From the NCBI GenBank assembly GCA_011087955.1, contig JAALKR010000019.1:1-40711 (forward strand): a stretch of DNA of 40,711 nt, written 5' to 3'. Shown one piece after another: positions 4,751 to 28,246 of this stretch (position 1 is its first letter; every line of letters starts with the position of its first letter). Below the pieces are notes generated by a model that was given only the letters and a program-made list of their open reading frames with translations, was not told where the DNA came from and made no database searches. Made by a program: the position numbers and the translations under genes. The DNA comes from Oligoflexia bacterium (lineage in GTDB: Bacteria; Bdellovibrionota; UBA1018; CAIPTA01; JAALKR01).

Positions 4751-4791
4751 TAGATGTCCCGTTGTTTGCGTAAAAGAAGGGATATAACCAT

Positions 4792-8049: not shown

Positions 8050-8050
8050 T

Positions 8051-8662
8051 TTGTCAACAAAGGTAGCAATTTTAGCATCTGGCACTGGGACTAATGCAGA
8101 AGCGGTTCTTGAGTATGCAGAGGCTCATCCAGAGTTTTATCAGGTTGTTGGAGTGATTTCAAATAAGAGAGATGCTGCGGTTTTAGCCAAAGCGGAAAAA
8201 TATTCCATGCCAGCTATACATATTCCCCACCGTGACCAGAGTGAACAGATTCAGCAACTAGAGGCCTGGAGTGCACAATGGGCTTGCTTGGCAGGCTATA
8301 TGAGAATCGTTACTTCAGATTTTTTACGTTTCTTTTTTGATGAGGAGCGTGGCTATGCAAGAGTGATAAATATTCACCCTTCACTTTTACCTAGGTTTCC
8401 TGGCTTGGACGCTTACGGACAGGCATTTGCCTCTGGTGAATCGGAGTCTGGAATCACAGTGCATTTAGTGGATGAAAAAATGGATCATGGCCCGATTCTA
8501 TTACAAAAATCTTTTCCTCGAAATGAGGATGATGATTTAGAGGCTTTTATGGCGCGTGGACGCGCGATTGAAAATTCTTTGTATGTGGAAGCCTTGGTTG
8601 GCTTATTAAAGGGTGAAATTCAACCTCGAGCGCAAGGAAAAACGGTTGCAAGGAAAAACTGA
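8051..8662 (+). CDS. purN: phosphoribosylglycinamide formyltransferase
   Basis: VAILASGTGTNAEAVLEYA, VINIHPSLLPRFPGLDAYGQAFASGESESGITVHLVDEKMDHGPIL; TTG start at 8051, just after purD stop, fits the domain start better than the tracked upstream ATG. Confidence 0.92.
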   Translation: MSTKVAILASGTGTNAEAVLEYAEAHPEFYQVVGVISNKRDAAVLAKAEKYSMPAIHIPHRDQSEQIQQLEAWSAQWACLAGYMRIVTSDFLRFFFDEERGYARVINIHPSLLPRFPGLDAYGQAFASGESESGITVHLVDEKMDHGPILLQKSFPRNEDDDLEAFMARGRAIENSLYVEALVGLLKGEIQPRAQGKTVARKN

Positions 8663-11600
8663 TGACGATGTCAAACATTGCTAGAATTGAAGTTAGATCT
8701 TTGTCCGGTCAGCGTCGAGATCACCGCATTGCTCATCATGCACGGCAATTTTTGGATATCCCGGTAGCGGCTGCAGAATCCATAGCGGTTTATTGGATTC
8801 AATCTCGAAGTGGAAAGGCTTTGCATGAGGATGAATTAAACGATTGGGTGCATACGGTTCTTGTCGATCCAGTTATTCAGGCTCCGATTCACGAAGCAAG
8901 TGATTTGGACTTCTCTGGTGGCGAGCGCGAAGAACCAGCCTTTGGCATAGAGGTTCGATTTCGTCCCGGCGTTACAGACAATGCTGGACGAAGTGCTACG
9001 GAAGCAATTCACTTAGTTTCAGGCTTTGCTCGTGAAAACGACGTTCAAGTGTATAGCGGAAAAATGGAATTACTTTATGGCAAAGTAAGCCTTGCCCATG
9101 CAAATCGAGTGGGCTCTGAGCTCCTGGGTAATGAGCTAATTGAGGAAATTCGCTCTTACAACCTGAATGAGTTGAGAGATAACTCTCGCTTTATCGATGC
9201 GAATGTTCCAGAAGTTAAGTTAGGTGAAAGCCCGCAAGCAGAAGAGATTAATATTTTTGTTGCGGATGAACATCTAGAAAGAATGAGTCATAAAAATTGC
9301 TGGGCTCTCACGCTTGAGGAGTTACATGCGATCCAAAATTATTATAAACAACCAGGCATTTTAGAATTCCGAAAGAAAGAAGGGTTAAGCAAAGATCCAA
9401 CTGATGTGGAAATGGAGGTGCTAGCTCAAACTTGGAGTGAGCACTGCAAACATAAAATTTTTGCAGCCAATATTGATTATGAAGAAGAGAGTGGTGACTA
9501 CTCAGGTTTCTATCCGAAGCTAGGTAAAGTTCGTATTGAGTCTCTCTACAAGACAGACATTAAGGGCGTGACGAAAGCTGTGGAAGAAAAGCGGAATCTG
9601 AAATGGCTTATTTCCGTTTTCTCCGATAATGCTGGAATTGTCCGCTTTGATTCGAATATGGACCTTTGTATGAAGGTTGAAACACATAATAGCCCTTCTG
9701 CTTTGGACCCCTATGGTGGATCACTTACTGGAATCGTAGGGGTAAATCGAGACATTCTTGGCTGCGGATTAGGAGCCAGGCCCATTGCGAATACGGATGT
9801 ATTTTGTTTTGCTCCTCCGAACTGGCCAGGCAAAGGCGAAGAAAAACAATTGCCGAAAGGTTTAAAACACCCACATCGCATCTTAGAAGGTGTGCATCGT
9901 GGTGTGGAGCATGGTGGAAATAAAAGCGGGATTCCGACGGTAAATGGTGCTTTTGTTTTTCATCATCGCTATGCCGGTAAGCCATTAGTCTATTGTGGAA
10001 CGATTGGCATTATGCCTCAAAAAATTATGTCACAAAAGACGAAGAGTGGTACCGATACTTTTGTTAAAGGACAAGCGCCTGGACACCATATAATCATGGC
10101 CGGTGGTCGCATTGGTAAGGATGGCATTCATGGTGCAACTTTCTCCTCAATGGAGCTAGATGAGACTGCACCAGCAACCGCAGTGCAGATTGGCGATCCG
10201 ATTACGCAAAAGCGTCTGGCAGATTTTTTGATTGAGGCTAGAGATAGAGAGTTATTTTCTTCTATAACGGATAATGGTGCCGGTGGGTTAAGTTCTTCCG
10301 TGGGTGAAATGGCAGAGCTTACAAATGGAGCGACTATTCATATCGATCGTGCTCCAGTAAAATACCCAGGGTTGTCGCCGTTTGAGTTAACGGTAAGTGA
10401 GAGTCAAGAGCGGATGACTTTTGCTGTGCCGGAGGAAAGATTAGACGAGTTTATGGAGCTTGCAAAGACTCGTGGCGTGGAAGCGACAGATCTAGGAGCC
10501 TTTACAAAGGATGGTTATTTTCGCGTTTGCTATGGAGAGAAGACGGTTGCCTTGCTTGATTTGGATTTTCTTCACAATGGCCACCCAAGGATGAGTTTGC
10601 GGGCAAAATGGCAGGGGCCGGAGCGAGAGAAAATCTGGTTTAAAACTCCAGGGCTTCCAAAGATTGATTCGAAATCGGTCGAAACTAGAGGTTTTTACGA
10701 ACAGGCAATGTTTACACTATTGTCGCGATGGAATATTTGTTCCAAAGAGAATTTAGTCCGGCGTTATGACCACGAGGTTCAAGCAGCCACCGTTGTGAAA
10801 CCGTTTGTTGGCCAAGCAAAAGATGGCCCAGGCGATTCGAGTGTTATTTGGTTAGCTCCTCATGGAGGAGAAGAATTTAACGGCGTGGCAGTCGGTTGTG
10901 GTATTCAGCCGCGAATGTCTCGGCTAGATACCTATTTAATGGCGCAAAGTTCATTGGATGAAGCAGTTCGTAATTGTGTGGCTGCGGGTGGAGACCCAGG
11001 TCAAGTCGCTCTTTGTGATAATTTTTGTTGGCCGGACCCATTGCCAAGCAAAAAAAATCCGGATGCTGAGCATAAACTGGCGCAGCTCGTTCGGGCTTGT
11101 CGTGGGCTTTATGACTTAGCTCGACTTTATGGCACGCCTTTCGTGTCTGGCAAAGACTCTATGAAGAACGATTTCATTGGCAAGTTATCCAATGGAAAGT
11201 CGGTCAAGATATCAGTTCCACCAACACTCTTAGTAACCGCAATGGCACGCGTTCCAGACGTTCGATTTGCTATGACGTCAGACTTCAAAGCAGGTGGTGA
11301 TAAAATTTATCTAATTGGCCAGTCATCGCCTAACATGGGAGGTTCAGAGCTAGCCGAGTGCTTTGACCTGCCTGATTCAATGAATGCGCAATTGCCCCCA
11401 AAGTTTAACGCCCATGAAAATCTAGAAGTCTATCGAACTTTACATAAAGCAATCATGTCAGGGTTGATCCAATCCTGCCACGATATATCTGATGGTGGTC
11501 TGTTAGTGGCACTAGCTGAATCTGCGATTGGTGGCCGTAAAGGGGTTAGTATTGATCTGGATAATTGCCATAATGAAGTGGTAGCGATGCATGGCTCTCA

Positions 11601-11817
11601 CTCCGCATTCTTATTCAATGAAACGTGTGGGCGATTTATTATTTCAGTGAAGCCAGAAGAAGAAGAGAATTTTAAAAATTTTTTCGAGAGCGTCTCATTT
11701 GCGTATCTTGGTGAGGTGAAAATAGATCCTATTTTACGTGTTCAAGATGTCGGTCTTGTGATCGTAGACGCCTCTCTCTCTGAGCTTAAAAAAGCATGGA
11801 AGGGAGAGGAGATCTAA
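8662..11817 (+). CDS. purL: phosphoribosylformylglycinamidine synthase, large (PurS-like region fused to PurL) form
   Basis: N-terminal PurS-like segment (FGIEVRFRPGVTDNAGRSATEAIHLV), then VLAQTWSEHCKHK, VETHNSPSALDPYGGSLTGIVGVNRD; 1051 aa; separate PurQ follows. Confidence 0.93.
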   Translation: MTMSNIARIEVRSLSGQRRDHRIAHHARQFLDIPVAAAESIAVYWIQSRSGKALHEDELNDWVHTVLVDPVIQAPIHEASDLDFSGGEREEPAFGIEVRFRPGVTDNAGRSATEAIHLVSGFARENDVQVYSGKMELLYGKVSLAHANRVGSELLGNELIEEIRSYNLNELRDNSRFIDANVPEVKLGESPQAEEINIFVADEHLERMSHKNCWALTLEELHAIQNYYKQPGILEFRKKEGLSKDPTDVEMEVLAQTWSEHCKHKIFAANIDYEEESGDYSGFYPKLGKVRIESLYKTDIKGVTKAVEEKRNLKWLISVFSDNAGIVRFDSNMDLCMKVETHNSPSALDPYGGSLTGIVGVNRDILGCGLGARPIANTDVFCFAPPNWPGKGEEKQLPKGLKHPHRILEGVHRGVEHGGNKSGIPTVNGAFVFHHRYAGKPLVYCGTIGIMPQKIMSQKTKSGTDTFVKGQAPGHHIIMAGGRIGKDGIHGATFSSMELDETAPATAVQIGDPITQKRLADFLIEARDRELFSSITDNGAGGLSSSVGEMAELTNGATIHIDRAPVKYPGLSPFELTVSESQERMTFAVPEERLDEFMELAKTRGVEATDLGAFTKDGYFRVCYGEKTVALLDLDFLHNGHPRMSLRAKWQGPEREKIWFKTPGLPKIDSKSVETRGFYEQAMFTLLSRWNICSKENLVRRYDHEVQAATVVKPFVGQAKDGPGDSSVIWLAPHGGEEFNGVAVGCGIQPRMSRLDTYLMAQSSLDEAVRNCVAAGGDPGQVALCDNFCWPDPLPSKKNPDAEHKLAQLVRACRGLYDLARLYGTPFVSGKDSMKNDFIGKLSNGKSVKISVPPTLLVTAMARVPDVRFAMTSDFKAGGDKIYLIGQSSPNMGGSELAECFDLPDSMNAQLPPKFNAHENLEVYRTLHKAIMSGLIQSCHDISDGGLLVALAESAIGGRKGVSIDLDNCHNEVVAMHGSHSAFLFNETCGRFIISVKPEEEENFKNFFESVSFAYLGEVKIDPILRVQDVGLVIVDASLSELKKAWKGEEI

Positions 11818-12602
11818 TGCAGCCAAAATTTTTGGTATTAACTGGGGACGGAATTAACTGTGAAAGAGAAACCGCACGGGCGTTTCAATTGGCAGGCGCT
11901 CAAGCGGATATTGTTCATATCAATGATTTGTTGGCAGGTGGATCTATCTTGGAAACCTATCAAGGCTTGGCGTTTCCCGGTGGATTTTCTTTCGGCGATG
12001 ATTTGGGTTCCGGACAGGTCTTGGCTGTAAAGCTCCGTCATGGCTTGGGCGAAAAATTACAACGTTTTGTTGAAAGTGGTGCGCCGATCATAGGAATTTG
12101 CAACGGCTTCCAAACGCTGGTCAAACTGGGACTATTGCCATTACCGTTTAAAGATCGAGTTATGGCATTGGCAGAAAATCGCCAAACTCACTTTATTGAT
12201 CAGTGGGTTGACCTAGAAGTATGTACTAATTCTCCCTGTGTATGGACAAAGGGTCTGATTGATCTTGAGGAAAAGATCCAGCTTCCGATCCGTCACGGGG
12301 AAGGTCGGGTTGTACTTCTGAACGAACAGGAAGAGTCTTTACATAGCCAGTTTGTCTCCGCAGGACAATTCCCTCTTCGTTATAAGCAGGACGTGAATGG
12401 CTCTTACGCAAGAATTGCTGGAGTCTGTGATCCGAAGGGCTTTATTTTTGGTTTAATGCCTCATCCCGAAGCAGCGGTTTCGAAATTGCTTTACCCGAAT
12501 ATTGATGAAATATCGAATCGAAGAGATCCAAGTGATAGAAGTGATATCGGTGTGGGGTTACGAATTTTTGAATCTTGTGTAAATTATTTGAAGGAAAAAT
12601 AG
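11817..12602 (+). CDS. purQ: phosphoribosylformylglycinamidine synthase glutaminase subunit
   Basis: KFLVLTGDGINCERETARAF, FPGGFSFGDDLGSG, GICNGFQTLVKLGLLP, LMPHPEAA; ATG in TAATG overlap with purL stop. Confidence 0.95.
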   Translation: MQPKFLVLTGDGINCERETARAFQLAGAQADIVHINDLLAGGSILETYQGLAFPGGFSFGDDLGSGQVLAVKLRHGLGEKLQRFVESGAPIIGICNGFQTLVKLGLLPLPFKDRVMALAENRQTHFIDQWVDLEVCTNSPCVWTKGLIDLEEKIQLPIRHGEGRVVLLNEQEESLHSQFVSAGQFPLRYKQDVNGSYARIAGVCDPKGFIFGLMPHPEAAVSKLLYPNIDEISNRRDPSDRSDIGVGLRIFESCVNYLKEK

Positions 12603-12603
12603 A

Positions 12604-14211
12604 ATGTACTCGGAGAAAATTAAAATTAGACGCGCACTCCTTTCCGTTTCAGATAAGACTGGGATCAAAGGCGTAGCAAAATTTTTACATGAACAGGGTG
12701 TGGAAATTATATCGACTGGTGGGACAGCGAAGGCAATCGGAAATTCCGGAATCCCTTATACGAATATCGAATCAGTTACTGGAAATCCGGAAGCATTCGG
12801 TGGTCGAATGAAGACGATTTCCTTTCCTGTGGCTAGCGCTTTGCTGTACCGGCGTGGTCATACGGAAGATGAATCCCAGGCTAAGGATTTGGGTATAGTA
12901 GCGATCGACTTGATTATTTGTAATTTATATCATTTTGCGGAGGCGATAGCAGCTGGTGCGGATGAATCCGATTTGATAGAGAAAATCGATATTGGCGGAC
13001 CGACGATGGTTCGCGCTGCAGCTAAAAATTATTCTGGCGTAACGGTATTGACCAACCCGGAACAATACGTCGAATTTATGGAACTCTTGAAGACTAACTC
13101 TGGAGAGATTGATTTTGAAAGTCGTAGAAAATTTGCAGTTGCTGCCTTTCAACATACTGCTGAATATGAAACGATGATCGCTCAGGAGTTAACGGATCGG
13201 TTTTCAGAGAACTCCTTGCAGTGGCTACAGTTAAAAGATGGGCGAGAGTTGCGCTACGGAGAAAATCCACACCAATCCGCGAAATATTATCGATCTCCGA
13301 AGCAAATAAAGAGCGAGGTAGCGGCCATCGCAGGCGCGAACATTATTCAGGGCAAACCACTTTCTTATAACAATATTATGGATGCGGATGCAGCCCATCG
13401 CTCTGCTTCCGATGCATGGGTTGCAAACTCCACGGCTGGAGTTTCATGTGCTGTGATTAAGCATATGAACCCTTGTGGATTAGCCGTGGCGGATACAGCT
13501 CTCCGAGCATTAGAGCTTGCGTGGGAAGGTGATTCCGTTTCTGCATTCGGTGGAGTCCTTTGCTTTAGTGGTGAAGTTGGCGAAGAAGTAGCAGAATGGC
13601 TGCGAGACAAGTTTATTGAAGTGTTGATTGTTCCATATCTAAGGCCAGAGGCGATAAAAATTTTCGCAAAGAAAAAGAATCTACGTATTTTACTTTGCCC
13701 ACCAAGAGACAAAATCATGAGTGAGCAGATGCTGAAGTCCGTGTCCGGTGGGATTTTGATCCAAGAGGAGGATGAAGGTCTGGATCCGGAACTTCAATCG
13801 GTTACAAAAGTAGAGTTTCCGGAAGAGAAGCGCCGCTTAGCTCATTTTGGTGTGATGGCTGCCAAGCATTTGAGGTCAAATGCAGTTGCGTTAGTAAAAT
13901 TGAGAAAGAATGGTGAACTACAGTTGGTAGGTGCGGGTATGGGGCAACCGAACCGAGTTGATTCCATTCGAAGACTTGCTGGGCCCAGAGCAAAAGAAAA
14001 AATCGAAAAAGAAAAAAATGCAATGGATGATTTGATTCTGATTTCCGATGCTTTCTTTCCCTTTGCGGACAATATCGAAGAGGCATTTGATTTGGGCATT
14101 AAGTTTATTATTCAACCAGGTGGTAGTATTCGAGATGAGGAAGTAATCCGGGCTTGTGATGAGCTAGGAGTAGCCATGGCCTTTACCGGTCGTCGGCATT
14201 TCCGGCATTAA
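12604..14211 (+). CDS. purH: bifunctional AICAR formyltransferase/IMP cyclohydrolase
   Basis: RRALLSVSDKTGI, GTAKAIGNSGIPYTNIESVTGNPEAFGGRMKT, LRYGENPHQSA, CAVIKHMNPCG, full length 535 aa. Confidence 0.97.
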   Translation: MYSEKIKIRRALLSVSDKTGIKGVAKFLHEQGVEIISTGGTAKAIGNSGIPYTNIESVTGNPEAFGGRMKTISFPVASALLYRRGHTEDESQAKDLGIVAIDLIICNLYHFAEAIAAGADESDLIEKIDIGGPTMVRAAAKNYSGVTVLTNPEQYVEFMELLKTNSGEIDFESRRKFAVAAFQHTAEYETMIAQELTDRFSENSLQWLQLKDGRELRYGENPHQSAKYYRSPKQIKSEVAAIAGANIIQGKPLSYNNIMDADAAHRSASDAWVANSTAGVSCAVIKHMNPCGLAVADTALRALELAWEGDSVSAFGGVLCFSGEVGEEVAEWLRDKFIEVLIVPYLRPEAIKIFAKKKNLRILLCPPRDKIMSEQMLKSVSGGILIQEEDEGLDPELQSVTKVEFPEEKRRLAHFGVMAAKHLRSNAVALVKLRKNGELQLVGAGMGQPNRVDSIRRLAGPRAKEKIEKEKNAMDDLILISDAFFPFADNIEEAFDLGIKFIIQPGGSIRDEEVIRACDELGVAMAFTGRRHFRH

Positions 14212-14224
14212 TGGAGAGAAGATT

Positions 14225-15226
14225 ATGGCAATATCTTATAAAGACGCAGGGGTTGATTGGCAAAAAGGTGATGCCTTTGTCCAAAAAATTAATGAATTGG
14301 TGCGAAGCACCTATACGGATGCGGTGGAGACGGGAGTTGGTTCCTACGCTGGTCTTTATAATATTGGAAATGAGCAATACTTAGCTTCCTCGACCGACGG
14401 TGTGGGAACAAAATTAAAATTAGCGCAATATATTGGTAAGCATGACACGATCGGGATCGATTTGGTGGCCATGTGTGCGAATGATCTAATTTGCGTTGGT
14501 GCCACGCCGCTATTTTTTTTGGACTATATTGTTTGTGAATCCTTGGATGTTGATGTCTCTGTAGCGATTATCGAAGGAATATCCCAGGGGTGCCGAAAAA
14601 CAGGTATGGCTTTGATTGGTGGAGAAACAGCAGAGCACCCAGGTTGTTTTCCAGAAAATGAATACGACCTTTCAGGTTTTTGCGTTGGCTTGGTTCATAA
14701 GGGCGATATTTTGAAGTGTGAAAATATTCAGCCCGGAGACGACTTAGTTTGCTTGCCATCTAGCGGGGTGCATTCCAACGGGTTTTCTTTGCTTCGGAAG
14801 TTAATTTCAATGGAAGAGAAAGAGTTGATTGAACAATGCCTGACCCCGACTCGATTATATGTCGATCCTTTTCTAAAAGTGAGAAGGAAAGCAGAAATTA
14901 AGGGAATGGCCCACGTTACAGGCTCCGCATTTAATAAGATTATACGCCTAAATAAGAATCTTGGCTTTGAGTTTACAGAATTGCCAACAGAGCCTGTAAT
15001 TTTTGATGAGTTAGCAAAGCGCTCTGGCCTTTCTGCTGCCGAACTATATTCGACGTTTAATATGGGAGTAGGGATGGTGATTGTGACCAGCGAGGGAGAG
15101 TCATTAGTAAACGCGTTTGCGGATATTGGGGAAAAGGCAGTGCTTGCAGGAAAAGTCACTGACCGTAAAGGTGTGGTTGAGATGAAGACTAGTCGTGGGG
15201 ACTTTGAGTTAAAGCCCGAAGTCTAG
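14225..15226 (+). CDS. purM: phosphoribosylformylglycinamidine cyclo-ligase
   Basis: ISYKDAGVDWQKGDAFV, STDGVGTKLKLA, ALIGGETAEHPG, GVHSNGFSLLRKL. Confidence 0.96.
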   Translation: MAISYKDAGVDWQKGDAFVQKINELVRSTYTDAVETGVGSYAGLYNIGNEQYLASSTDGVGTKLKLAQYIGKHDTIGIDLVAMCANDLICVGATPLFFLDYIVCESLDVDVSVAIIEGISQGCRKTGMALIGGETAEHPGCFPENEYDLSGFCVGLVHKGDILKCENIQPGDDLVCLPSSGVHSNGFSLLRKLISMEEKELIEQCLTPTRLYVDPFLKVRRKAEIKGMAHVTGSAFNKIIRLNKNLGFEFTELPTEPVIFDELAKRSGLSAAELYSTFNMGVGMVIVTSEGESLVNAFADIGEKAVLAGKVTDRKGVVEMKTSRGDFELKPEV

Positions 15227-15240
15227 ATAAATCTAAAGAG

Positions 15241-15275
15241 GGTTCTATGGAAGTTCTACGGGAGGTCCTATGGGG
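15241..15275 (+). repeat. about 3 x 12-bp imperfect tandem repeat over the folA start region
   Basis: ggttctatgga / agttctacggga / ggtcctatgggga; the last unit contains the folA ATG (15270). Confidence 0.6.
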
Positions 15276-15764
15276 ATTTCATTGATTGCCGCAGTGGCAA
15301 AAAATCGAGTTATTGGTAAGGACAATAAGATGCCATGGCATATTCCGAGTGAACTAAAACGATTTAAGGCTACGACTTTAGGTGGAACACTCATTATGGG
15401 GCGCCGGACGTTTGAGTCTATTGGACAGCCATTGCCGGGACGAGATATGATTGTGATATCTCGGAATCCAGGCTACCAGCTAGGGAATTGTGGCTACAAA
15501 CTAGAGAGTTGTTTGCTGGCGCAGTCATTGAAAGAGGCTTTGGGGAAAGCAGATCCGGAAAAAGAAATTTTTATAGCTGGTGGATCACAAATATACGAGC
15601 TTGCCTGGCCCCATGTCGATACGTTTTATTTGACGCAAATAGAATTGGACGTGGATGGGGACGCTTATCTGCCAGACTTTGACTTGAGTAAATTTCAAGA
15701 AGTCGCTACGGATCGAATCGAGGGCGACCCAACCTATACTTGCTATACCTATAAAAAATCTTAA
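15270..15764 (+). CDS. folA: dihydrofolate reductase
   Basis: ISLIAAVAKNRVIGKDNKMPWHIPSELKRFKATT, MGRRTFESIGQPLPGRDMIVISRN. Confidence 0.96.
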   Translation: MGISLIAAVAKNRVIGKDNKMPWHIPSELKRFKATTLGGTLIMGRRTFESIGQPLPGRDMIVISRNPGYQLGNCGYKLESCLLAQSLKEALGKADPEKEIFIAGGSQIYELAWPHVDTFYLTQIELDVDGDAYLPDFDLSKFQEVATDRIEGDPTYTCYTYKKS

Positions 15765-15802: not shown

Positions 15803-18800
15803 ATGCTCGATTTCAATAGTAGAGCAGAGTCTGGTTTAACACTTTTTTCCGCTGGTAGAGCACGCCAAGTAGCATTTCGAGCAGCGGTAGAGTTTATTCG
15901 TAGTGCTGAGTTTTTGGCAAAAGAAATTCAGATTGATTCCTGTATTGTGTTAGGAGAGAAAATTTCTGCGTATGCACAGAATTGGTTAGAAAGATCAATG
16001 CTAGAAGAGGGGGAAGCATTTTCCGGTAAGAGAGTTTTTACTTGGAAAGAATGGATTGCATCTTGCGCGCGCAAACAGGCGATCCAAGAAGGACGAATTT
16101 TTCGAGAGGCGTCGGATCTGGAAGAAAGGGAATTTTTACGTCGACTGCTGAGTAGTTTAGAAGCGAAGGATATGCTTAGGGAGTATCGTGGGCTTTGGCA
16201 AGAGGAAAAATTTTTTGCCGAATTGCTACGATCGATTCGAGAGTTTCGCCGAAAAGGCTTTTCCACTCCTTCGGCGATTGAAAATTTACGAGAATCATTG
16301 ATGGCCAGAGGAGAGGAAGGAGAGACATTAGTCAAACATGACCTCTGGACTATTCTCACGACATGGCAAATTACGCGTGAGCTAGAGTTGGATTCATTTT
16401 TGGACCAAGGTTCGCAAATAAATCGTCTTTTGAAGATTGAATATCTGGGCCCCCAATCCGTTTTCTTGCTAGGAGTGGAAGACTTAGGTGCAGCGGAGAT
16501 TGATTGGTTGCACCATGTGTCTCATAAGGCGTCTTTATATTGGCCTGTGGCGATGGATTCAAGAGAGCTAGCAAGGATATTTGGTAGTCAAAGAACTGAA
16601 GTGAGTATTGAGCATGATGATTCCATGCCCAGCGCTGAACATAATGAGTCTGTTTCCGCCCAAACAATTAAGCTTTTACAAAGCACGTTTTCGCAGGCGA
16701 ATGTGTTGGTTGCTAGTTTGTCTGCGACTGAGTCTTTGAAGGAGTCAAAAAATTCTACTCGCATTATCCCTTTGATTAAAGCCCATACTATAGTTGAAGA
16801 GACTAGGAGTGCTAGCGCACTTTTAGCTGAAATCCTCGATCAGGAGCCTAATACGCACGTACAGATCATTGCACCGAAATCAATTTTGCAAAAAGTAGTT
16901 GTGAGAGAGGCTTGGACAGAATTCTTGCCAGACATTACGACAGGGCTCTTTCCGGCTCGATCCGTAATGGACCAAGGCTATATTTCCCTCTTTTTAAACA
17001 CACTGGATTTAATTCCGACCAATTCAAAGGCAGCCCCCGGTATTGATCTACTATTGGCTCTCTTTGAAGACCAAAAAAATGAGGTAGAAATTTTTGTTAA
17101 AGAGTTATGGGAAAGAGGTTGCACGAAGGGCTTAGGAGGATGGCGAGAGATTGCCGAAGCCAGTAAGACAAGTGTAGCTAAAGAATTTATGACGTTGATA
17201 GGCGAGTTACAATCTATTTTCCCAGCGAACGCGAACTGTGTTGAATTTGCTGAAGCGATGGAGACTGCGCTTATGCGCACAAAGCTCTTCGAGTTGGTTC
17301 GCCATGCTACAACGGCGAAAAATGATAGAGATGCACATGCAGCAATTTCTCTTTTACAAAAAGGAGGGGCTCGCTTAGCGGTTGATTATGTTGATAAGTA
17401 TGAATTTACTGATTGGTTACAGGAGCTTTGGATTCTATTGTCGAGTACTCCGCTTGAAAGCGTTGTAATCCAGGATCGAAGGATTTCGGTTTATACCCCT
17501 GGAGAGTGGATCCCTCCAGCTCAAAATTCAAATTCACTTCTTCGAATTGTAATGTATCTCTCGAAAGCTTATGATTCGAGTTCGACCTCCCCTTATTTTA
17601 CAAAGGAGACAGATCGGCAGCTGCTTTCGGACTGGGGTATTAAGACGAGCAGTCAGGTTGAAGGTTCACTATACAATTGGTATAAGGATTCAATATTGCA
17701 AACCGATCGTTTGCTTGTTTCAACTGCTAGGTTCGATGCGAAAGGGGCAGATCTCAGTGAATCCTTTTTGCACCATTGCGCCGATTATAAACAAAGTTTT
17801 TGGCCAGATATTTCGTCCAATTTGAAGGTTAAAGACTATATTTTGCCACAGCTGGAGTTATCTCATTCCACAGGAGCTTTCCCTCATTATTCGGCAAGTT
17901 CATTAGACCGTTATTATCGATGTCCGTTTTTATTTTTAGTGGAAAAAATATTTGAAGGAGAAGATGCTCAGGCAGAGCTTGCATTAGATTGGAGTCGCCT
18001 AGAAGAAGGCAATGTATCGCATAAGGTATTGGAACATTTTTTTAAAGCAAGAGATGTGTGGGCATCATTAGATCGATTGAAAGATCGATTGGAGATTAGA
18101 AAAATTTTTGACAACTGTTTTGCCCAAGTTTGTAAGGAAATGGACCATGCCTACTATTTAGGAGGCCCGGGGTTAGATCGATATGCAGAAGCTCGTTTAT
18201 CACGGAAGCTTTGGGAATTTATTGAATCGGAGCTGGATTATCTTCAAGATTATCCCTTATTGTCTCATTCTAAAACTGAGGAAAGATTCGAGCTGACATT
18301 ACCGTCAGGTAGGAATTTAAAGGGCTCTATTGACCGAATAGATTTCGATGAGAAGAATAAACGATTTTTAGTTTGGGATTATAAATCTACATCTACACCT
18401 TCGAATAAAGAGATTCACGATGGTGAGAGCTTGCAATTACCGTTATATATTTGGGCAAGTAATGAACTTGGCTTTGGTAAGCCTGCAGGTGGTGCATTTG
18501 TTTCAATGCAGATGAAACGTCGAAGTGAAGGTGTATTTATAAAAGAGTTTTGTCGCGCCAAAAAGAATGTGGATGAGGTTTATTATGAAAGTTCGTCTCG
18601 CAAGAAGCTCAGCTTAGAGGAAGTACCAGATTATTTGGAATCGATTTTACAAGAATCTGATCGTCGAATTAAAAGCATTGAGAATGGAGTTTTTTCCGTT
18701 CAACCAAAGAAATCGGAAGACTGTAAGCGATGTGGCGTCCGGCCTGCTTGTCGGATCCGAGAATCTAAATTTCGATGGAGTGCATTGCCAGCGCCGGCAA

Positions 18801-21800
18801 ATTTTGTACAAATCCGAGAGTTGAGTAACTCTCCAGACTTTTCAAAGACATCGGGAGTAAAAGAAAAGGAAGCAAAAGAAAAGGAAACAAAAGAAAAGGA
18901 AATTATTTTTTCTCCAGAACAAGAAATAGCCTTAACGATTCGGGGAAAGCTTGTATTTCTAGAGGCTTCAGCAGGATCCGGTAAAACTACGATTTTGGTG
19001 GAAAAGTACCGTCGGGAGATTCAATTTTTAACTTCGACTAAGCCTAAGGGATTGGGGTTAAGTCCAGAACAAGCCGTGGATTCGGTCTTGGCAGTTAGCT
19101 TTACTGAAAAATCTGCCTCAGAGATTAAGGGAAGGCTGATGCACTTGCTCCTAAAGGACTATGGACCAGGAATAGCTTTGCGAGGGGTGAAGAATGTTTC
19201 GACAATTCATGGACTCAATCAACGCATGATTCGAGAGTACGCACACTTATTGGGTGTGGACCCGATGTTTGAGATTCTGGATGAGATACAGGGCAAAGAG
19301 TTTCACGAAGAGTGTCAGTATAGATTTTTCACAGAAGTACTAGATACGGCCGATGGAGATTTGGCGAAAGCCTTTGAAACGGTGTTTCAGCATTATTCCC
19401 GTGGAGATATGAGTGACATTCTTCAATTATTGAGTGAGAAACGAGGATTTTGGGGAGGTGATTCAGAACTTCAAGAGTATTTGCAAACGAGCCAAGGCGG
19501 AGGGAAGAAAAATGAAAATGAGGAGGAGCAAATTTACCCCGAGGCGGCGCAACGAGAATTGTTGTTGAGTATTAACTACCTCTTTCAGCGATTTCTCAAG
19601 CTTTATGATCTCGCAAAAAGAGCACGAGGAGTACTTGATTTTAATGATTTAGAGTTAATCGCACTTCAGGCAAAAGAGCACGATGAAATTCTTCAAGACA
19701 TGCAAAAACGGTTTTCTTTGATTCTGGTAGATGAATTTCAAGATACGAATTCTTTGCAACGATCCATGATTGAGGCAATTTCTCGAAAAGATACACAAGA
19801 CAGAGGAATGCAAAATGTATTCATTGTCGGGGACGCGAAGCAGTCAATCTATCGATTCCGATCTGCAGATGTATCGGTCTTTCAAAGACTTAAGCAAGAA
19901 GCTCAACAGTTTGGCCTAGTCCGTAGCTTGGATAAAAACTACCGTAGCCAAGGTGCAATTGTGAAGTTTGCAAATGCAGTTTCGGAGAAAATATTCCCAG
20001 GAAAGGAAGAGCGAACCAAAGACTTTGAGGCGGAGCTTGCCATCGCCGACGCACATCGGGAGCCAGAAGCGTTGCCAGAGCTTTGGCGGTTTACCTTGCC
20101 TGAGGGTGAAACCGGTATAGACGCTATTCGGAAATGGGAAGCAAAGAATGTAGTCGAAGCCATTCGTAAGCTAGTTGATGAAGGTGAAGAGTACCCAAAT
20201 ATAGCCCTCCTGTTTGCAAAATTGACGAACGTTGAGACCTATATTGCAGCCCTACAGGCTGCTGGTATTCCGTATGTTATAGAGTCTAAGCGTGGATTCT
20301 ATACCCAGTCAGTGGTTTTGGACGGCGTCGCACTGTTGCGCTCCATTTATCTTAAAGAAAATCGACTAGCTCGATTAGCATTGCTGAGATCCTCTTGGTT
20401 CCGAATTGATATAAGCAATATACAAGAAAGATTGGACTCAGATTCTCTATTGCATGAGCATGCCTGGTTTAAGAGATTACAGTCATCTCGTGTAGAGCTT
20501 CGCCCTTCAATTGTTCTAGCTAAGGCCTATAAGGAGCACCCGTTGTATGCTCAAGCCTCTCAACGCGTGCAGATGGATAAGTTCATTTACTTAGTGGAAG
20601 AGCTAGAATCAGGACTTAAGTCTTGGGGCGAGTTAGTGGAACAAATCTCTGATTTAACTGGCTGGGCAGGGGAAAAGGGCGCCGCTAATTCCTCGATAGT
20701 GCCTGACCCAGACTCTGGTAATGCAGTTAAGTTAATGACTATCCATGCGTCTAAAGGACTCGAGTTTTCTTCGGTTCTCTTGCTTGATTTGGATGGTTCA
20801 GTTAGAAAAAATTCCGATATCATTCGTTATGATCAGAATATCGGTTGCACAATTAAGTGGCGGCAAAATAACGGTGACTTTACTTTTGGAGCATCCTATG
20901 AGTCCATGACGAGTTCGATTCGTGAAAGGGAAGAAGCAGAGTCGGCCCGCCTCTTTTATGTCGCGGTGACGCGAGCAAAGAATAATCTAGTATTATTCCA
21001 GCATGCAGCCTCGCCGAAGAAAAATGGTAAGGCATTCTCTTGGGGGAAAGTGTTGCATGAAAATGAGTGGGGAGAGTCATTACGGATTGTAGAAAGGCCC
21101 GCACAAGTTGTAGAAGAGCCTGCCTCTGAATTTGGCATTGAACATTCAATTACCAAGGAAGCTCATGAAAAGTCTATACGGACTCAAAAATTTGAGTTCA
21201 TAGATTCAATTCAAAACAAAGATCTTGTGAATTTATCTGTCACTGAACTCTCCTCCTATGTTTACTGCCCGGAATTTCATCGATTGAAGTTTGTGCAACG
21301 CTGGGAAGATACGGTTGTTGATAATTGGGATGTCCAGTCTGTACGTCGTCCATTCACAAAGCAGTCGGAGGCCTCACGCCTATTGAAAAAGATGGGGCTG
21401 TCCAATAAAGAGCGCGGAATCACTGTACATCGAGTATTGGAAAATTTAGATGCCTCGACGGATAACCTCGAGCTTTGGCAGAAAATTTTGTACGAGTCCT
21501 ATACAGCACAAGGCGCTCCCAAGGACTCTGGAGCTTTATCTAAGCTAATTAAATTAGACATTGATTTGGTTCGCACCTTTATCGCAAGTCCAGTGGGCCA
21601 GGAGTTGTTTTATTCCATTATGGAATCTCATGCAGAACTCCCGATTTCTTTGGCCGCCGGCGGGATTCGACTGTCGGGGGCTATCGACCGCGTAGTTCGT
21701 AAAGAAGATGGCCGTTGGCTTGTAGTGGATTACAAAACTGCGAGTATGGACGGCGCTATCGAGCGTTACACGGTACAGGTGCAGGTGTATATGAATGGGT

Positions 21801-22072
21801 TGAAAAGTATTTTGCTCTCGCGTGGGGAGACAGATATTCGTATTGAAGGTCGGATCATTGATTTATTCAGCGGTGAAGGGAGGTCGATAGACCCATTTGT
21901 CGATGGAGTGATTGATCAACTGGTTTTAAAATTGAAAGAAGCTTATCAAAACCGCGAGCAGCATTTTACGGAAGGTATTTCTGGGTGCCAAGGGTCGAAG
22001 GCTTGCTTGGTTTGCCCGTACACGTCTGTGTGTAGCATGGGTCGTGACTTTATTCTAAATCATACAAACTAG
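15803..22072 (+). CDS. single-chain AddB-like/AddA-like fusion: degenerate helicase + RecB-type nuclease 1 (Cys cluster), linker, UvrD/AddA helicase + RecB-type nuclease 2 (Cys cluster)
   Basis: 2089-codon uninterrupted ORF. Nuclease 1: YYRCPFLF, SHKVLEHFF, GSIDRID, LVWDYKS, QLPLY, CKRCGVRPAC. Helicase: LEASAGSGKTT, ILVDEFQDTNSLQ, VGDAKQSIYRFR, KNYRSQ, LMTIHASKGLEF, LFYVAVTRAKNNL. Nuclease 2: YVYCPEFHRL, GITVHRVLENL, SGAIDRV, VVDYKTA, QVQVY, CLVCPYTSVC. Confidence 0.9.
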   Translation: MLDFNSRAESGLTLFSAGRARQVAFRAAVEFIRSAEFLAKEIQIDSCIVLGEKISAYAQNWLERSMLEEGEAFSGKRVFTWKEWIASCARKQAIQEGRIFREASDLEEREFLRRLLSSLEAKDMLREYRGLWQEEKFFAELLRSIREFRRKGFSTPSAIENLRESLMARGEEGETLVKHDLWTILTTWQITRELELDSFLDQGSQINRLLKIEYLGPQSVFLLGVEDLGAAEIDWLHHVSHKASLYWPVAMDSRELARIFGSQRTEVSIEHDDSMPSAEHNESVSAQTIKLLQSTFSQANVLVASLSATESLKESKNSTRIIPLIKAHTIVEETRSASALLAEILDQEPNTHVQIIAPKSILQKVVVREAWTEFLPDITTGLFPARSVMDQGYISLFLNTLDLIPTNSKAAPGIDLLLALFEDQKNEVEIFVKELWERGCTKGLGGWREIAEASKTSVAKEFMTLIGELQSIFPANANCVEFAEAMETALMRTKLFELVRHATTAKNDRDAHAAISLLQKGGARLAVDYVDKYEFTDWLQELWILLSSTPLESVVIQDRRISVYTPGEWIPPAQNSNSLLRIVMYLSKAYDSSSTSPYFTKETDRQLLSDWGIKTSSQVEGSLYNWYKDSILQTDRLLVSTARFDAKGADLSESFLHHCADYKQSFWPDISSNLKVKDYILPQLELSHSTGAFPHYSASSLDRYYRCPFLFLVEKIFEGEDAQAELALDWSRLEEGNVSHKVLEHFFKARDVWASLDRLKDRLEIRKIFDNCFAQVCKEMDHAYYLGGPGLDRYAEARLSRKLWEFIESELDYLQDYPLLSHSKTEERFELTLPSGRNLKGSIDRIDFDEKNKRFLVWDYKSTSTPSNKEIHDGESLQLPLYIWASNELGFGKPAGGAFVSMQMKRRSEGVFIKEFCRAKKNVDEVYYESSSRKKLSLEEVPDYLESILQESDRRIKSIENGVFSVQPKKSEDCKRCGVRPACRIRESKFRWSALPAPANFVQIRELSNSPDFSKTSGVKEKEAKEKETKEKEIIFSPEQEIALTIRGKLVFLEASAGSGKTTILVEKYRREIQFLTSTKPKGLGLSPEQAVDSVLAVSFTEKSASEIKGRLMHLLLKDYGPGIALRGVKNVSTIHGLNQRMIREYAHLLGVDPMFEILDEIQGKEFHEECQYRFFTEVLDTADGDLAKAFETVFQHYSRGDMSDILQLLSEKRGFWGGDSELQEYLQTSQGGGKKNENEEEQIYPEAAQRELLLSINYLFQRFLKLYDLAKRARGVLDFNDLELIALQAKEHDEILQDMQKRFSLILVDEFQDTNSLQRSMIEAISRKDTQDRGMQNVFIVGDAKQSIYRFRSADVSVFQRLKQEAQQFGLVRSLDKNYRSQGAIVKFANAVSEKIFPGKEERTKDFEAELAIADAHREPEALPELWRFTLPEGETGIDAIRKWEAKNVVEAIRKLVDEGEEYPNIALLFAKLTNVETYIAALQAAGIPYVIESKRGFYTQSVVLDGVALLRSIYLKENRLARLALLRSSWFRIDISNIQERLDSDSLLHEHAWFKRLQSSRVELRPSIVLAKAYKEHPLYAQASQRVQMDKFIYLVEELESGLKSWGELVEQISDLTGWAGEKGAANSSIVPDPDSGNAVKLMTIHASKGLEFSSVLLLDLDGSVRKNSDIIRYDQNIGCTIKWRQNNGDFTFGASYESMTSSIREREEAESARLFYVAVTRAKNNLVLFQHAASPKKNGKAFSWGKVLHENEWGESLRIVERPAQVVEEPASEFGIEHSITKEAHEKSIRTQKFEFIDSIQNKDLVNLSVTELSSYVYCPEFHRLKFVQRWEDTVVDNWDVQSVRRPFTKQSEASRLLKKMGLSNKERGITVHRVLENLDASTDNLELWQKILYESYTAQGAPKDSGALSKLIKLDIDLVRTFIASPVGQELFYSIMESHAELPISLAAGGIRLSGAIDRVVRKEDGRWLVVDYKTASMDGAIERYTVQVQVYMNGLKSILLSRGETDIRIEGRIIDLFSGEGRSIDPFVDGVIDQLVLKLKEAYQNREQHFTEGISGCQGSKACLVCPYTSVCSMGRDFILNHTN
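18857..18901 (+). repeat. 3 x 15-bp in-frame tandem repeat encoding the charged linker (VKEKE-AKEKE-TKEKE)
   Basis: gtaaaagaaaaggaa / gcaaaagaaaaggaa / acaaaagaaaaggaa. Confidence 0.9.
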
Positions 22073-23010: not shown

Positions 23011-24588
23011 ATGAAGTTGCGTTTATGGACTGTTGTATTGCTTGCTCTACTCGCAAGTGTAGAGGGACTAGCGCAGACAGAGTTCCGACAATCTTTGTAT
23101 GGATATCGAGCTTATACGCGTGAAGGAGTCTATCTTTATAAGCGCGGGAGGTTCTATGAAGCCGCCCGTTATTTTTTTCAGGCAGCACTGCGGAGAGTGT
23201 CGGCAGAGCAAAAAGCAGTCGCTTACGCACGAACTGCGAATGCTTTAACTGCTCAAGGTATGTTTGAGTCAGCATCCTACTTTTATTTAAAAGCAATTGG
23301 TTCAGGATTTGAGCAAGCAACCTCAATTGCTTTGAAATCTACAGAAGCTCTGTTCAAGAACCTTGGCGGAGGACTATTTAAAAAGTACCTATTGAAGTAT
23401 ACACGTGTCGACCAGTATCCACGGGATCAAAAAAATTATTACCTATACTTTTCAGCACTTGATCATATATTGAATAATCGCGCGACTGGCGCATTAAAAG
23501 CCATTTCAAAGATCAGCGAGAACTTTGCGTATTACCCACAGGTTTTATTCCTCCAAGGAACTACTCGCTTACTATTGAACCAAGTGCAAGCTGGAGCAAA
23601 GGATTTTATTCGTTGTGCAGAAGAGATAAAGAATCGCAAGTATCGATACTATCATGGCCCAAAATCGACAGAATATGAAAAGACCGACTTAGAAAATCGC
23701 TGCCATGCGGGTGCTGCTCGTGCGTTCTATCAAGCAAGAAAGCATTCAGAAGCGGACAAATGGTATGCAAAAATCGATGTCCGTTCAGTGGTTTGGCCAC
23801 AAGTCCTGTATGAACGCGGATGGAATTATGTTGCACAAGGGAAATACAACCGAGCTTTAGGTAAACTAATTACGTACAAAGCACCAGTATTGGATTGGTT
23901 CTATAATTCTGAAGTTGAGCTGCTTCGAGCGATCTCTTACTTACAACTATGCTTGTATAGTGATGTGAATAATGAAGTGAACTATTTCGTTAAGCGTTAT
24001 GCTAAATTGGGCTTAGAGCTTAAGAAGCTATTGAAGAGCACAGAAGATGGTACGCAAGCGGATTTCAATAAACTCTTTGCAATTGGTATTAACTCTCTTC
24101 GACGAGGATCTTTCTCTAAGCATAGATTGACGCAGTTTATGAATCGCTTTATTCGATCTCCTTATTTTGCTAGAATCGCACAAGTGGACGTAAATGTTGA
24201 ACGAGAGCTGGAGTATTTACGTGATCAAAAAAATTCGAACAAGCGCGGACTGGGCGGATTCTTAGTTGAAGTTTTGGCTTGGAAGAAGCTAGTGGCACGG
24301 AAATTAGGAGGCGCATTTATTCGTCAGCGTTTGGATACGGAGTATGCAGCATTACTGAAGAACGTAGAAACTATCGACATCGTTAAGCTCGAAATGCTTC
24401 GAAGAGCAAAACGTAAAATTGAAAATAATTTCATTAATGAATCCACCGATGAATTCGGCAATCCAAAGCGTGGTTCTTTGGGTATGCCAAGAGTTCGAAA
24501 CGACCAATACTTCTGGTCATTTAGTGAGGAGTTTTGGATTGATGAACTGGGAGACTATGTATTCGCACTTCGTCCAGAGTGTAGCTAA
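23011..24588 (+). CDS. exported TPR-type protein, AglT/GltE-like candidate
   Basis: Signal peptide MKLRLWTVVLLALLASVEGLA; TPR-like helices (GRFYEAARYFFQAAL, GMFESASYFYLKAI, GKYNRALGKLI); C-terminus YFWSFSEEFWIDELGDYVFALRPEC. Confidence 0.6.
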   Translation: MKLRLWTVVLLALLASVEGLAQTEFRQSLYGYRAYTREGVYLYKRGRFYEAARYFFQAALRRVSAEQKAVAYARTANALTAQGMFESASYFYLKAIGSGFEQATSIALKSTEALFKNLGGGLFKKYLLKYTRVDQYPRDQKNYYLYFSALDHILNNRATGALKAISKISENFAYYPQVLFLQGTTRLLLNQVQAGAKDFIRCAEEIKNRKYRYYHGPKSTEYEKTDLENRCHAGAARAFYQARKHSEADKWYAKIDVRSVVWPQVLYERGWNYVAQGKYNRALGKLITYKAPVLDWFYNSEVELLRAISYLQLCLYSDVNNEVNYFVKRYAKLGLELKKLLKSTEDGTQADFNKLFAIGINSLRRGSFSKHRLTQFMNRFIRSPYFARIAQVDVNVERELEYLRDQKNSNKRGLGGFLVEVLAWKKLVARKLGGAFIRQRLDTEYAALLKNVETIDIVKLEMLRRAKRKIENNFINESTDEFGNPKRGSLGMPRVRNDQYFWSFSEEFWIDELGDYVFALRPECS

Positions 24589-27500
24589 TCTACGCAAACG
24601 TAAGAGCATAACATACGCTTTGAGTATTGCCGGTTTGCTGTCAGTTGCATTGCAATCGACGGATCTGAACGCAAACTATTCCGATGAAGAGTTCAGTGTG
24701 GTGATCACGCCGGCTGAGAAGCAATTGGATGGTATTCGGAATCAAGAGATTAAGCAAATAAAGATGGTCCTGAGTCGAAACGATAATAAGGCGAAAAGAG
24801 TAGATCTTTTACTTCGTCTGGGGCAAGTTTATACAGAAAAATTCAAATTCTACTTTTTCAAAGAAAATGAAATTTGGAACAAAAAAATTGATGCCTATAT
24901 AGCTTTGGACGATAAACAGCGGAAAGGCAAGCGGCGTCCTAGAATTGATGCGGGGGAATCAAAAAAATTCGTACAAATGGCGATCAATGAGCTGGAAAAG
25001 GCACTTAAGTCTGTACGTAACTACAATAAATTAGATGAACTTTATTATTATTTGGCATTTAATTATTGGGAGCTCGGTAAGAGGAGGCGAGCGGCTAGAT
25101 ATTTTACAATGATCGCTCGAAAATATCCAAAATCTCCGTATGCTTCGGAGTCTTACCGTCATCTTGCGGACGATGCATTTGAAAGACAAAAGTTTAAATC
25201 TGCACGAGTCTATTTCAAGAAAGCAGCCAAGGATACCAAGACTCCAACCTATCCTAGAGTATTGTATGGGTTGGCATGGTCAGAGTTTAAAAATGGTCGT
25301 AGTCGTACGGCATTAAATACAATGCTAACAGCAATCAAGAGATCCAAAGTAGGTAGTGAGTTAGAGGCCAGGAGGCATGGAATCGCCCTGCAGAATGATG
25401 CCTACGATGCAATTGTTCTTTTCTATTCAGAGGCGGGTAAACCAGAACGAGCGGGAGAGTTCTTTGAGAAGGAACTTGGTAAACAAGTTGTTCCAGAGTT
25501 ATTAACGAAGCTTTTAAAGACCTATCAACGTCAAGGAAGATATGGTCTGGCGGTAAAGGTTTCAGAGCAAATGAGAAAAATGGATATTGTCTCGGAAGCA
25601 GAGAGCGACCATAATCGTTTTGAAATTTTGCTATCGGCTTTCAAGTTGGCTCAGCAAAAGCAGCAACGTTCAAAAGAAATGAAGTTCATTAAGCAATTGG
25701 TTTCTGAGTTTGGGCATTCGAAGAGTGATGAAGTGCGCATTAAAGTGAAGGATTTGGTAGCCAACTCCGCTCGCGTTTCCCATAAAATATCTATGAAATC
25801 TTACAAGAAACATCGCAAGCAGAAGCATGCCCTAGAACTTTACAATCTATATTTAGCTACTTGGGCGACCGATATGTCTACGAGTGCGTATTATCAGACT
25901 CGCTTTTACATGGCTGATTTGTATTTTGCTATAGGGAAGTATCGTCAGGCGGCGAACGAGTATAGACTCTTAGTTACAGCGGCGACTGAGGATCCTGATA
26001 ATTCTACAATTAAAAAATTAAAGCATGGATCGATCAAAGGCTTAATTTACTCACTGGATTTTTATTTTAAGAAACGAAAGCGTAAGCGTAAAGCTGGGCG
26101 GTCAGAACTGGACGAATTGCTATCGGCTATTGATGCATTTGTGGCTGTTTATCCGAGTGATAAAGAAACCCCAAAATTTTTAGCTAGGGCCGCCGGTCTT
26201 CTTAAAGACAATAAGGAGCGCAAGCAAGAGTTTGAGGAGCGCTTACAATCCATGATTGTTCAATATCCACATACAAATCAAGCCTTAGAGTCTGCGGTCA
26301 TTCTAGTGAAAGAGGCTGAGAAAGCGCAAGAGTGGGGAAAACTACAATCCCTAATTAGGGGCTTCTTAAAAAATAAGGCGTTATCAACGCAGGATCGCAA
26401 GGGCAAGTTTAAGAAAGAATTGATTGCAATTCGTGACGGCGCAAAATTCAAGGTCGTTCGCGGAATAGAAAAAGAAAAGAATTTTGAAGAAGCAGCGGAA
26501 CGATATGAAAAGCTAGCTAAAGAAACACGCGACGGAGAAGTGCGATTTAAGTCTCTCAATAACGCTGCTGTTTCTTGGGCGAAAGCTGGAGAGTTCGAGG
26601 ATGAATTACGAGTTTTAAAGAAGGTTGCTCGGCGCTATCCAGAGCGCTCGGATGCTTCTCAACGAATCCTAGATTTAGTCAATGAGAGCTTTTTCCAAGG
26701 TGAATATGAAACTGCAGCGAAGAAGTATGAAGAATTCTATACCTTGCATGAGAGTCGGATTCATACGAGGTCGAAGAGAATTCAAAACTTAGCTATTAAT
26801 GCCCTTGAAACAGCGGCTTTTCTACGGAACGCTTTAGAGCAGGATAAAAAAGCTGCTGAAAATATTCGAAAAATCATCAATGCATCGAGCCGTAAAATTA
26901 GAATTGCGCGTACTGCGGCGGAAGAAATTGTTTATGATTTTGCTTCTCGTTATCGCCGTCAAGGCAGGAAAGGGCGTGCTATTAATGTATATAAGAGATA
27001 TTTGCGCGCCTTTCCGCATGGTCGTTATGCAATAGAATCGGCACTATTTATTGGTGTTCTCTATATGGACCTGCGCGAAGCTGAAAAGGCGCAATCCTAT
27101 TTTTCGGATGCTCAGAAAATCTATGGACGAAAAAAGGGACGAAGCATTGCGCGGTCGGAACTCTCTTATGCGGCGCAAGCTCGCTTGCTGCTTCTGAGTG
27201 GACTGGAAGAGACCTACTATGATGCGAAAGTCTCACTTCCGGAGAGTCAATTAAAGCGAGATGTGCAATCAAAACTTAAGCGAATGGAGCGATTGAACAA
27301 GGGATATCTACAAGTAATCGAATATGGAGATGGCAAATGGGCGCTAGAGGCGCTCTACAAAATGAGCCTTGCCTATCAAGAGTTTGCAAACGCATTAGGG
27401 CGGATTCCGGCACCAGACAGCTATTCAGATAAAGATAAGGCGAAATTTCGTGCCCAATTAAGACAGATTGCAAAACCGGTGCGGACTAAGGTGGTAGAGA

Positions 27501-28246
27501 CTTTGAAGTCTGCACTAAAAAAAGGTGAGTTACTACGAATTGGTGGCAATGCCATGATGAAAATAGCAATTGCCTACGCGCTCTTTTTGCCTGAACAACA
27601 ACGATTACCTTTAGCCTATAAAGTTGATTGGTCTCAACCTAAGAACTGGATTATGGGCAAAACTGAGGATGTTGATGAGGCCAGGTCTATGCTGCTGAAA
27701 AATCCCAAACATCTTCGGTCTTTAGTTCAGCTCGGTAATTATCACCTAATGCGCGAAGAGGCTCGCTTTGCACAAATGTTTTATACTCGAGCGTTTAAGA
27801 TCGATAAGAATCATGTTCCAGCACTAAACAATCTAGCCTATCTCGAAGGTATGGGCGGTGACTTCCGTGCGGCTATGGCTGGCTTCCGAGATGCTCTTAA
27901 GGCTCGGGAGTTTGAACTTATCCCGAAGCGCAATTTATCGCGTCTCTATATGGGGTCCGGCCTTTGGGAGTATGCTGCTCAATCTTACCAACAATTAGAA
28001 GTTCGAATGCCACAGGATAAGGAAGTAGTTCAAGGGTTAGGGCTTTCTCACTTGGCATTAGGTGAGAAGAATCGAGCTCGTACAAAATTAAAAGGCAACT
28101 TGCCAGATGGTGAGAATGGAAAATTTGCTCGCGCTATGTTGGAACTTGCGGCTGGCGACCAAGAAGATGCTTTGGATGAGTTGCGAGATATCGATGGTGA
28201 GAATGAGTTTGCGCTAATGATTACAGACTTTTGGAGAAAGAAGTAA
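24557..28246 (+). CDS. large TPR-repeat protein, AgmU/GltD-like candidate
   Basis: Multiple TPR-like units (YYYLAFNYWELGKRRRAARYFTMIARKYPKSPYA, GDFRAAMAGFRDALKAREFE, GLWEYAAQSYQQLEVRMP). Start taken at ATG 24557 (MYSHFVQSVANLRKRKSITYALSIAGLLSVA), overlapping the previous gene by 32 nt. Confidence 0.65.
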   Translation: MYSHFVQSVANLRKRKSITYALSIAGLLSVALQSTDLNANYSDEEFSVVITPAEKQLDGIRNQEIKQIKMVLSRNDNKAKRVDLLLRLGQVYTEKFKFYFFKENEIWNKKIDAYIALDDKQRKGKRRPRIDAGESKKFVQMAINELEKALKSVRNYNKLDELYYYLAFNYWELGKRRRAARYFTMIARKYPKSPYASESYRHLADDAFERQKFKSARVYFKKAAKDTKTPTYPRVLYGLAWSEFKNGRSRTALNTMLTAIKRSKVGSELEARRHGIALQNDAYDAIVLFYSEAGKPERAGEFFEKELGKQVVPELLTKLLKTYQRQGRYGLAVKVSEQMRKMDIVSEAESDHNRFEILLSAFKLAQQKQQRSKEMKFIKQLVSEFGHSKSDEVRIKVKDLVANSARVSHKISMKSYKKHRKQKHALELYNLYLATWATDMSTSAYYQTRFYMADLYFAIGKYRQAANEYRLLVTAATEDPDNSTIKKLKHGSIKGLIYSLDFYFKKRKRKRKAGRSELDELLSAIDAFVAVYPSDKETPKFLARAAGLLKDNKERKQEFEERLQSMIVQYPHTNQALESAVILVKEAEKAQEWGKLQSLIRGFLKNKALSTQDRKGKFKKELIAIRDGAKFKVVRGIEKEKNFEEAAERYEKLAKETRDGEVRFKSLNNAAVSWAKAGEFEDELRVLKKVARRYPERSDASQRILDLVNESFFQGEYETAAKKYEEFYTLHESRIHTRSKRIQNLAINALETAAFLRNALEQDKKAAENIRKIINASSRKIRIARTAAEEIVYDFASRYRRQGRKGRAINVYKRYLRAFPHGRYAIESALFIGVLYMDLREAEKAQSYFSDAQKIYGRKKGRSIARSELSYAAQARLLLLSGLEETYYDAKVSLPESQLKRDVQSKLKRMERLNKGYLQVIEYGDGKWALEALYKMSLAYQEFANALGRIPAPDSYSDKDKAKFRAQLRQIAKPVRTKVVETLKSALKKGELLRIGGNAMMKIAIAYALFLPEQQRLPLAYKVDWSQPKNWIMGKTEDVDEARSMLLKNPKHLRSLVQLGNYHLMREEARFAQMFYTRAFKIDKNHVPALNNLAYLEGMGGDFRAAMAGFRDALKAREFELIPKRNLSRLYMGSGLWEYAAQSYQQLEVRMPQDKEVVQGLGLSHLALGEKNRARTKLKGNLPDGENGKFARAMLELAAGDQEDALDELRDIDGENEFALMITDFWRKK

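Follow-up and report, generated by a model that had tools for sequence, protein, structure and literature searches.

The helicase-nuclease AddAB (RexAB) resects double-strand DNA breaks using a single motor in AddA and one nuclease per strand, with AddB acting as a second arm. RecBCD, which serves the same pathway with a RecB-like motor-nuclease, has three subunits; the nuclease-like domain of RecC is inactive and RecD is a second motor. The mycobacterial AdnAB consists of two chains, with a helicase domain in both subunits. For the B. subtilis enzyme, scanning for Chi by the inactivated helicase of AddB has been described, together with Chi recognition and an ionic latch (PMC4824097). No published fusion of AddA and AddB was found in the open-access literature, which is weak evidence given that most subscription papers fall outside that scope.

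Here we describe a gene of an Oligoflexia bacterium in which the two AddAB subunits appear to be joined in one chain, AddB first. We estimate at roughly 85% the probability that it encodes a single-chain AddAB helicase-nuclease that arose once, in the ancestor of the order, by loss of a stop codon, and that most likely works as AddAB. The window, that is, the whole stretch of DNA analysed (40,711 nucleotides, contig JAALKR010000019.1), comes from an incomplete draft genome of 45 contigs (88% complete; G000 below). Its largest open reading frame starts with ATG and runs for 2089 codons with no internal stop. The features of this gene are as follows.

15803..22072, + strand: addBA fusion gene, one open reading frame of 2089 aa, the sole AddA/AddB copy found in the genome
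15803..18859, + strand: AddB-like half, residues 1-1019 (hhalign, Foldseek, Walker A absent)
17888..18754, + strand: first RecB-type nuclease (PDDEXK_1), residues 696-984 (Pfam PF12705)
17921..17923, + strand: C707, cysteine 1 of the AddB four-cysteine (Fe-S) motif, invariant
18722..18751, + strand: C974, C977 and C983, the other cysteines of that motif, invariant, within CKRCGVRPAC
18860..18901, + strand: junction stretch KEKEAKEKETKEKE, residues 1020-1033, 15-bp repeats (TRF), absent in the G001 fusion
18902..22069, + strand: AddA half, residues 1034-2089 (NCBIfam addA_Gpos, 1.4e-75, under the curated cut-off)
18911..20998, + strand: UvrD-type SF1 helicase motor, residues 1037-1732 (PF00580, PF13361; motifs I-VI)
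21233..22033, + strand: second RecB-type nuclease (PDDEXK_1), residues 1811-2077 (Pfam PF12705)
22004..22033, + strand: C2068, C2071 and C2077 (with C1822), AddA-side four-cysteine motif, invariant across 17 AddA sequences

The original prediction of an uninterrupted 2089-codon AddB-AddA frame was confirmed, in that a single open reading frame shows full-length homology to both proteins. A Pfam and NCBIfam HMM search of the protein matched PF12705 twice, PF00580 and PF13361. No second copy of AddA or AddB was found in the source genome, the sole other match being a UvrD-type helicase frame.

The first half consists of a helicase-like region devoid of motor motifs, followed by a nuclease of the RecB type and an Fe-S motif of four cysteines. 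Motif scanning found neither a Walker A nor a DExx box in this half, while its nuclease matches PDDEXK_1 with an E value of 8.9e-31 when the half is searched alone, as anticipated from the letters of the sequence (a complete RecB-like nuclease behind a region with no Walker A). The nuclease motif residues H740, D844, D859, K861, Q878 and Y882 are invariant across 13 AddB sequences. The four cysteines (C707, C974, C977 and C983) reproduce a hallmark of AddAB, and the Fe-S cluster that they would hold is predicted. Because the NCBIfam AddB models match this half only weakly, it was examined by profile comparison. In hhalign, the two fused N-terminal halves matched a reference set of seven aligned AddB proteins, most of them from Firmicutes, with an E value of 1.1e-37; the match spans 867 columns and covers residues 60-994. 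Adding eleven split AddBs from the class to the fused halves brought the E value to 1.1e-51. An AlphaFold2 model of the AddB half, built from the alignment with split AddBs, reached a mean pLDDT of 68.5 and a pTM of 0.52, and its best five PDB matches in Foldseek (4cej_B, 4ceh_B, 3u44_B, 4cei_B and 3u4q_B) were all AddB chains of B. subtilis (E 2.4e-25 to 8.5e-24), ranking above AdnA and RecC. These structures share 13-15% identity with the modelled half, and the global TM-score against B. subtilis AddB is 0.34, so that the domain arrangement of the model is not trustworthy. By profile and predicted structure, the first half of the fusion is judged to be a full-length AddB.

The second half opens with the motor, whose Walker A motif (ASAGSGKT) lies at 18965-18988. 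UvrD-helicase (PF00580) covers residues 1037-1367 (E 5.9e-51), UvrD_C reaches residue 1732 (E 2e-24 in the whole protein, 4.2e-25 in the second half alone), and helicase motifs I, Ia, II, III, IV, V and VI are all present by motif scan. The second PDDEXK_1 domain spans about residues 1811-2077 (E 2.4e-15, second half alone); the full UvrD/AddA motif set and second RecB-like nuclease expected here are thus both in place. Its residues H1876, D1962, D1976, K1978, Q1992 and Y1996 are invariant in 17 AddA sequences. Both nucleases carry the motifs GxxxH, GxIDR and QxxxY, with DYK seen directly, and each is followed by C-x2-C-x5-C. The AddA half aligns over its full length with 15 split AddAs of the same class and of Tumebacillus, and from this alignment and the addA_Gpos match the second half is taken to be a full-length AddA.

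Set against the known systems, the locus comes closest to AddAB of the B. subtilis type (3u44, 3u4q, 4ceh, 4cei, 4cej), with which it shares the domains of both halves, the four cysteines of AddB and the order AddB before AddA. AddA pairs a UvrD-type SF1 motor with a C-terminal RecB-type nuclease, and AddB a motor-dead helicase-like N-terminal region with a C-terminal nuclease. What differs is that AddA and AddB are here not separate polypeptides but one frame, in two genomes, and that the AddA half has four cysteines too; since these are also invariant in the split AddAs aligned here, they are a feature of these AddAs whether fused or split. AdnAB (6ppj, 6ppr, 6ppu) likewise has a helicase and a nuclease in each half, but it is a weaker structural match (5.8e-16) and has motor motifs in both subunits, whereas the first half here has none. 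RecBCD resembles the fusion in pathway and in its RecB-like motor-nuclease, but the fused chain has one motor only and nothing corresponding to the three-subunit arrangement with a RecD-type second motor. The single-chain form is a variant of AddAB, and no new reaction is implied.

The fusion is rare. In its phylum, the AddA half has a match at E<=1e-22 in 119 of 369 genomes; among these, frames longer than 1160 codons occur only in G000 (2090) and in G001 (1998), the latter from a different family of the order. Frame lengths in the class survey were read through stops, and two further candidates, the apparent open frames of G050 (1889) and G048 (1555), were rejected on reading the DNA, where in each case two in-frame genes are separated by a stop codon. 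The expectation that addA and addB are normally separate, adjacent genes holds in the close relatives: the split relatives of the class that were read in detail all have two genes, arranged in several families as purM-addB-addA and abutting or overlapping by a few bases. Split loci of the class (L043/G050, L049/G014 and L057/G022) have the gene order and catalytic residues of the fusion, and differ in being two genes with a few-base overlap or one stop codon between them. The pair of nucleases and the AddB lacking Walker A, being ordinary for AddAB and common to these split relatives, are not peculiar to the fusion. In G050 (L043, 6474-6477) the TAG that ends addB directly precedes the ATG of addA, with no change of frame; this arrangement would be one codon away from a fusion and suggests a plausible path to the fused gene.

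Elsewhere, the pair takes other forms. Within the phylum, three loci of family f23 (L089 at 7721-9844, L065 and L083) have an AddA of about 665-707 aa, apparently lacking the C-terminal nuclease. Two families of the class, f4 and f5 (L055 and L054; G008 and G007), do not have AddB adjoining AddA, and in G008 an AddB-like match lies about 10 kb from AddA. The addB and addA genes have thus been separated in some lineages.

The G001 gene starts with GTG and encodes an intact fusion of 1995 aa that retains the catalytic residues and cysteines and is 30% identical to the G000 protein over the whole length. It sits at the matching place, after purH and purM. From the third genome of the order (G002) only the last 685 codons are available, as the contig ends inside the AddA part. 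A maximum-likelihood tree built on the AddA parts groups G000, G001 and the truncated G002 together in a clade supported at 100/99.

Comparison of the two fusions also bears on the junction. In G000 it contains a 15-bp unit repeated 2.9 times (TRF, 18859-18902, score 81), as had been noticed beforehand, although the KEKE linker that it encodes is 14 residues long and not 15. Short tandem arrays are common in the window (11 TRF rows), which makes the repeat unremarkable in itself, and the G001 fusion has no KEKE repeat. The distance from the last AddB cysteine to the Walker A region of AddA is 71 residues in G000 and 55 in G001, while AddB tail and AddA head add up to 39-58 in six split pairs. 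The G001 junction therefore looks like a plain stop loss, its length matching two normal tails added together, while in G000 the 14-residue KEKE stretch comes on top of the plain joint. The idea that the fusion is tied to a short expandable spacer did not survive this comparison, and the KEKE repeat was rejected as its cause or condition.

The strongest alternative is that the fused frame is real but gives rise to two polypeptides, through either internal initiation or proteolysis at the junction (for instance in KEKE), and so an ordinary two-subunit AddAB. In G000, two in-frame TTG codons (residues 995 and 1007) fall in the stretch that runs from the AddB cysteines to Walker A, and residues 986-1033 form a low-pLDDT tail in the AddB-half model that looks flexible. 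(A structure prediction of the junction fragment, residues 691-1890, made with no alignment, gave a mean pLDDT of 33 and was discarded.) Against this, neither TTG is preceded by a clear Shine-Dalgarno sequence, and ATG and GTG are absent from that stretch. In G001 no in-frame ATG, GTG or TTG occurs between residue 910 (the AddB Fe-S region) and residue 997 (past Walker A), so a separate start of AddA is unlikely there. The frame has also stayed open through a deep split, which suggests selection for the fused chain, or an absence of cost. On balance we regard a two-polypeptide product as improbable.

Gene content around the fusion is relevant to a second alternative, a diverged helicase-nuclease with another role, either in phage defence or as a UvrD-Cas4-like or AdnAB-like enzyme. 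Two neighbouring genes stand directly upstream.

14225..15226, + strand: purM-type (AIR synthase) gene (Pfam), a conserved addB-addA neighbour in the class
15270..15764, + strand: dihydrofolate reductase gene (Pfam), between purM and the fusion, not in G001 (L045 gene order)

The fusion protein does score below family cut-offs: it passes none of the NCBIfam thresholds TIGR02785, TIGR02773 and TIGR02786, reaching 249.9 bits for addA_Gpos against a cut-off of 707.65 bits, and UvrD combined with a Cas4-like nuclease occurs in other contexts (PMC5704561). The addA_Gpos cut-off is, for its part, passed by 0 of the 369 genomes of the phylum. Another role is hard to reconcile with the housekeeping purM neighbourhood, which is common to split addB-addA (shown for L043, L049, L052, L056 and L060), with a first half that, unlike AdnAB, has no motor motifs, and with the standing of this gene as the sole AddAB candidate found in the genome; we consider it very unlikely. 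No relatives of the fusion turned up among the viral contigs searched, and a plasmid search returned no record covering 80% of the query.

The surroundings of the gene hold further points of note. Positions 3266-15764 form a near-complete same-direction run of purine-synthesis genes (purF, purE, purC, purD, purN, purL, purQ, purH and the purM-type gene), ended by the dihydrofolate reductase gene directly before the fusion. Downstream, 24419-28246 encodes a TPR-repeat protein of 1275 aa, with a 1214-aa open reading frame at the matching place in G001. An FHA-domain protein gene at 28559-30598, with a C-terminal region that looks AgmX/TonB-like by eye, contains 6.8 tandem copies of an 18-bp repeat (29780-29901) that code for SMNQAR/SMSRAR units.

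Least probable of all is an assembly or sequencing error that erased a stop or shifted the frame between two separate genes, for which the draft state of the genome and the repeat at the junction might speak, but which we reject because an independent second genome carries so divergent a fusion with no repeat, making such an error unnecessary as an explanation, and because a miscounted 15-bp unit leaves the frame intact. The prospect that all close relatives would prove split, with an assembly error here, is likewise set aside by the fused gene of G001. Judging from these sequences, the AddB-AddA fusion is real and old.

The reading that we prefer is that a stop codon between tightly coupled addB and addA genes, in a purM-addB-addA arrangement, would have been lost once, in the ancestor of the order. 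The AddA half would bind a duplex DNA end and translocate 3'-5' on ATP. Of the two nucleases, that of AddA would cut the 3'-ended strand and that of AddB the 5'-ended one, while the helicase-like region of AddB would serve as second arm and possibly as Chi scanner. The product would be a 3' overhang for RecA. Fusion would fix a 1:1 ratio and make assembly intramolecular. We infer expression as one chain, all of the biochemistry and Chi recognition from sequence and by analogy with AddAB; the most likely function is ordinary AddAB resection of double-strand breaks from one chain.

Scanning the GTDB genome collection gave 80 loci, among them one (L160) with a frame of the opposite order. In Candidatus Neomarinimicrobiota BH26 (JAERTG010000095.1, 6468-12671), an AddA-then-AddB frame of 2067 aa has Pfam matches to UvrD (9-460) and PDDEXK_1 (1759-2061), and its C-terminal part matches AddB in hhalign (2.9e-24). 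Like the fusion described here, it appears to combine one motor and two nuclease stretches in a single-chain AddAB; it differs from those of G000 and G001 in placing AddA first. Known here from one MAG, it is a separate event from the AddB-AddA fusion. We lean towards the view that single-chain AddABs arose at least twice in opposite orders, that a working machine tolerates either joint and that the fused chain is a real cellular enzyme. Having both subunits in one natural chain, at a fixed 1:1 ratio, would make such an AddAB convenient for single-molecule and structural work on DNA-break resection, and the two fusion orders, if both fold and work, constrain the possible placement of the subunits.
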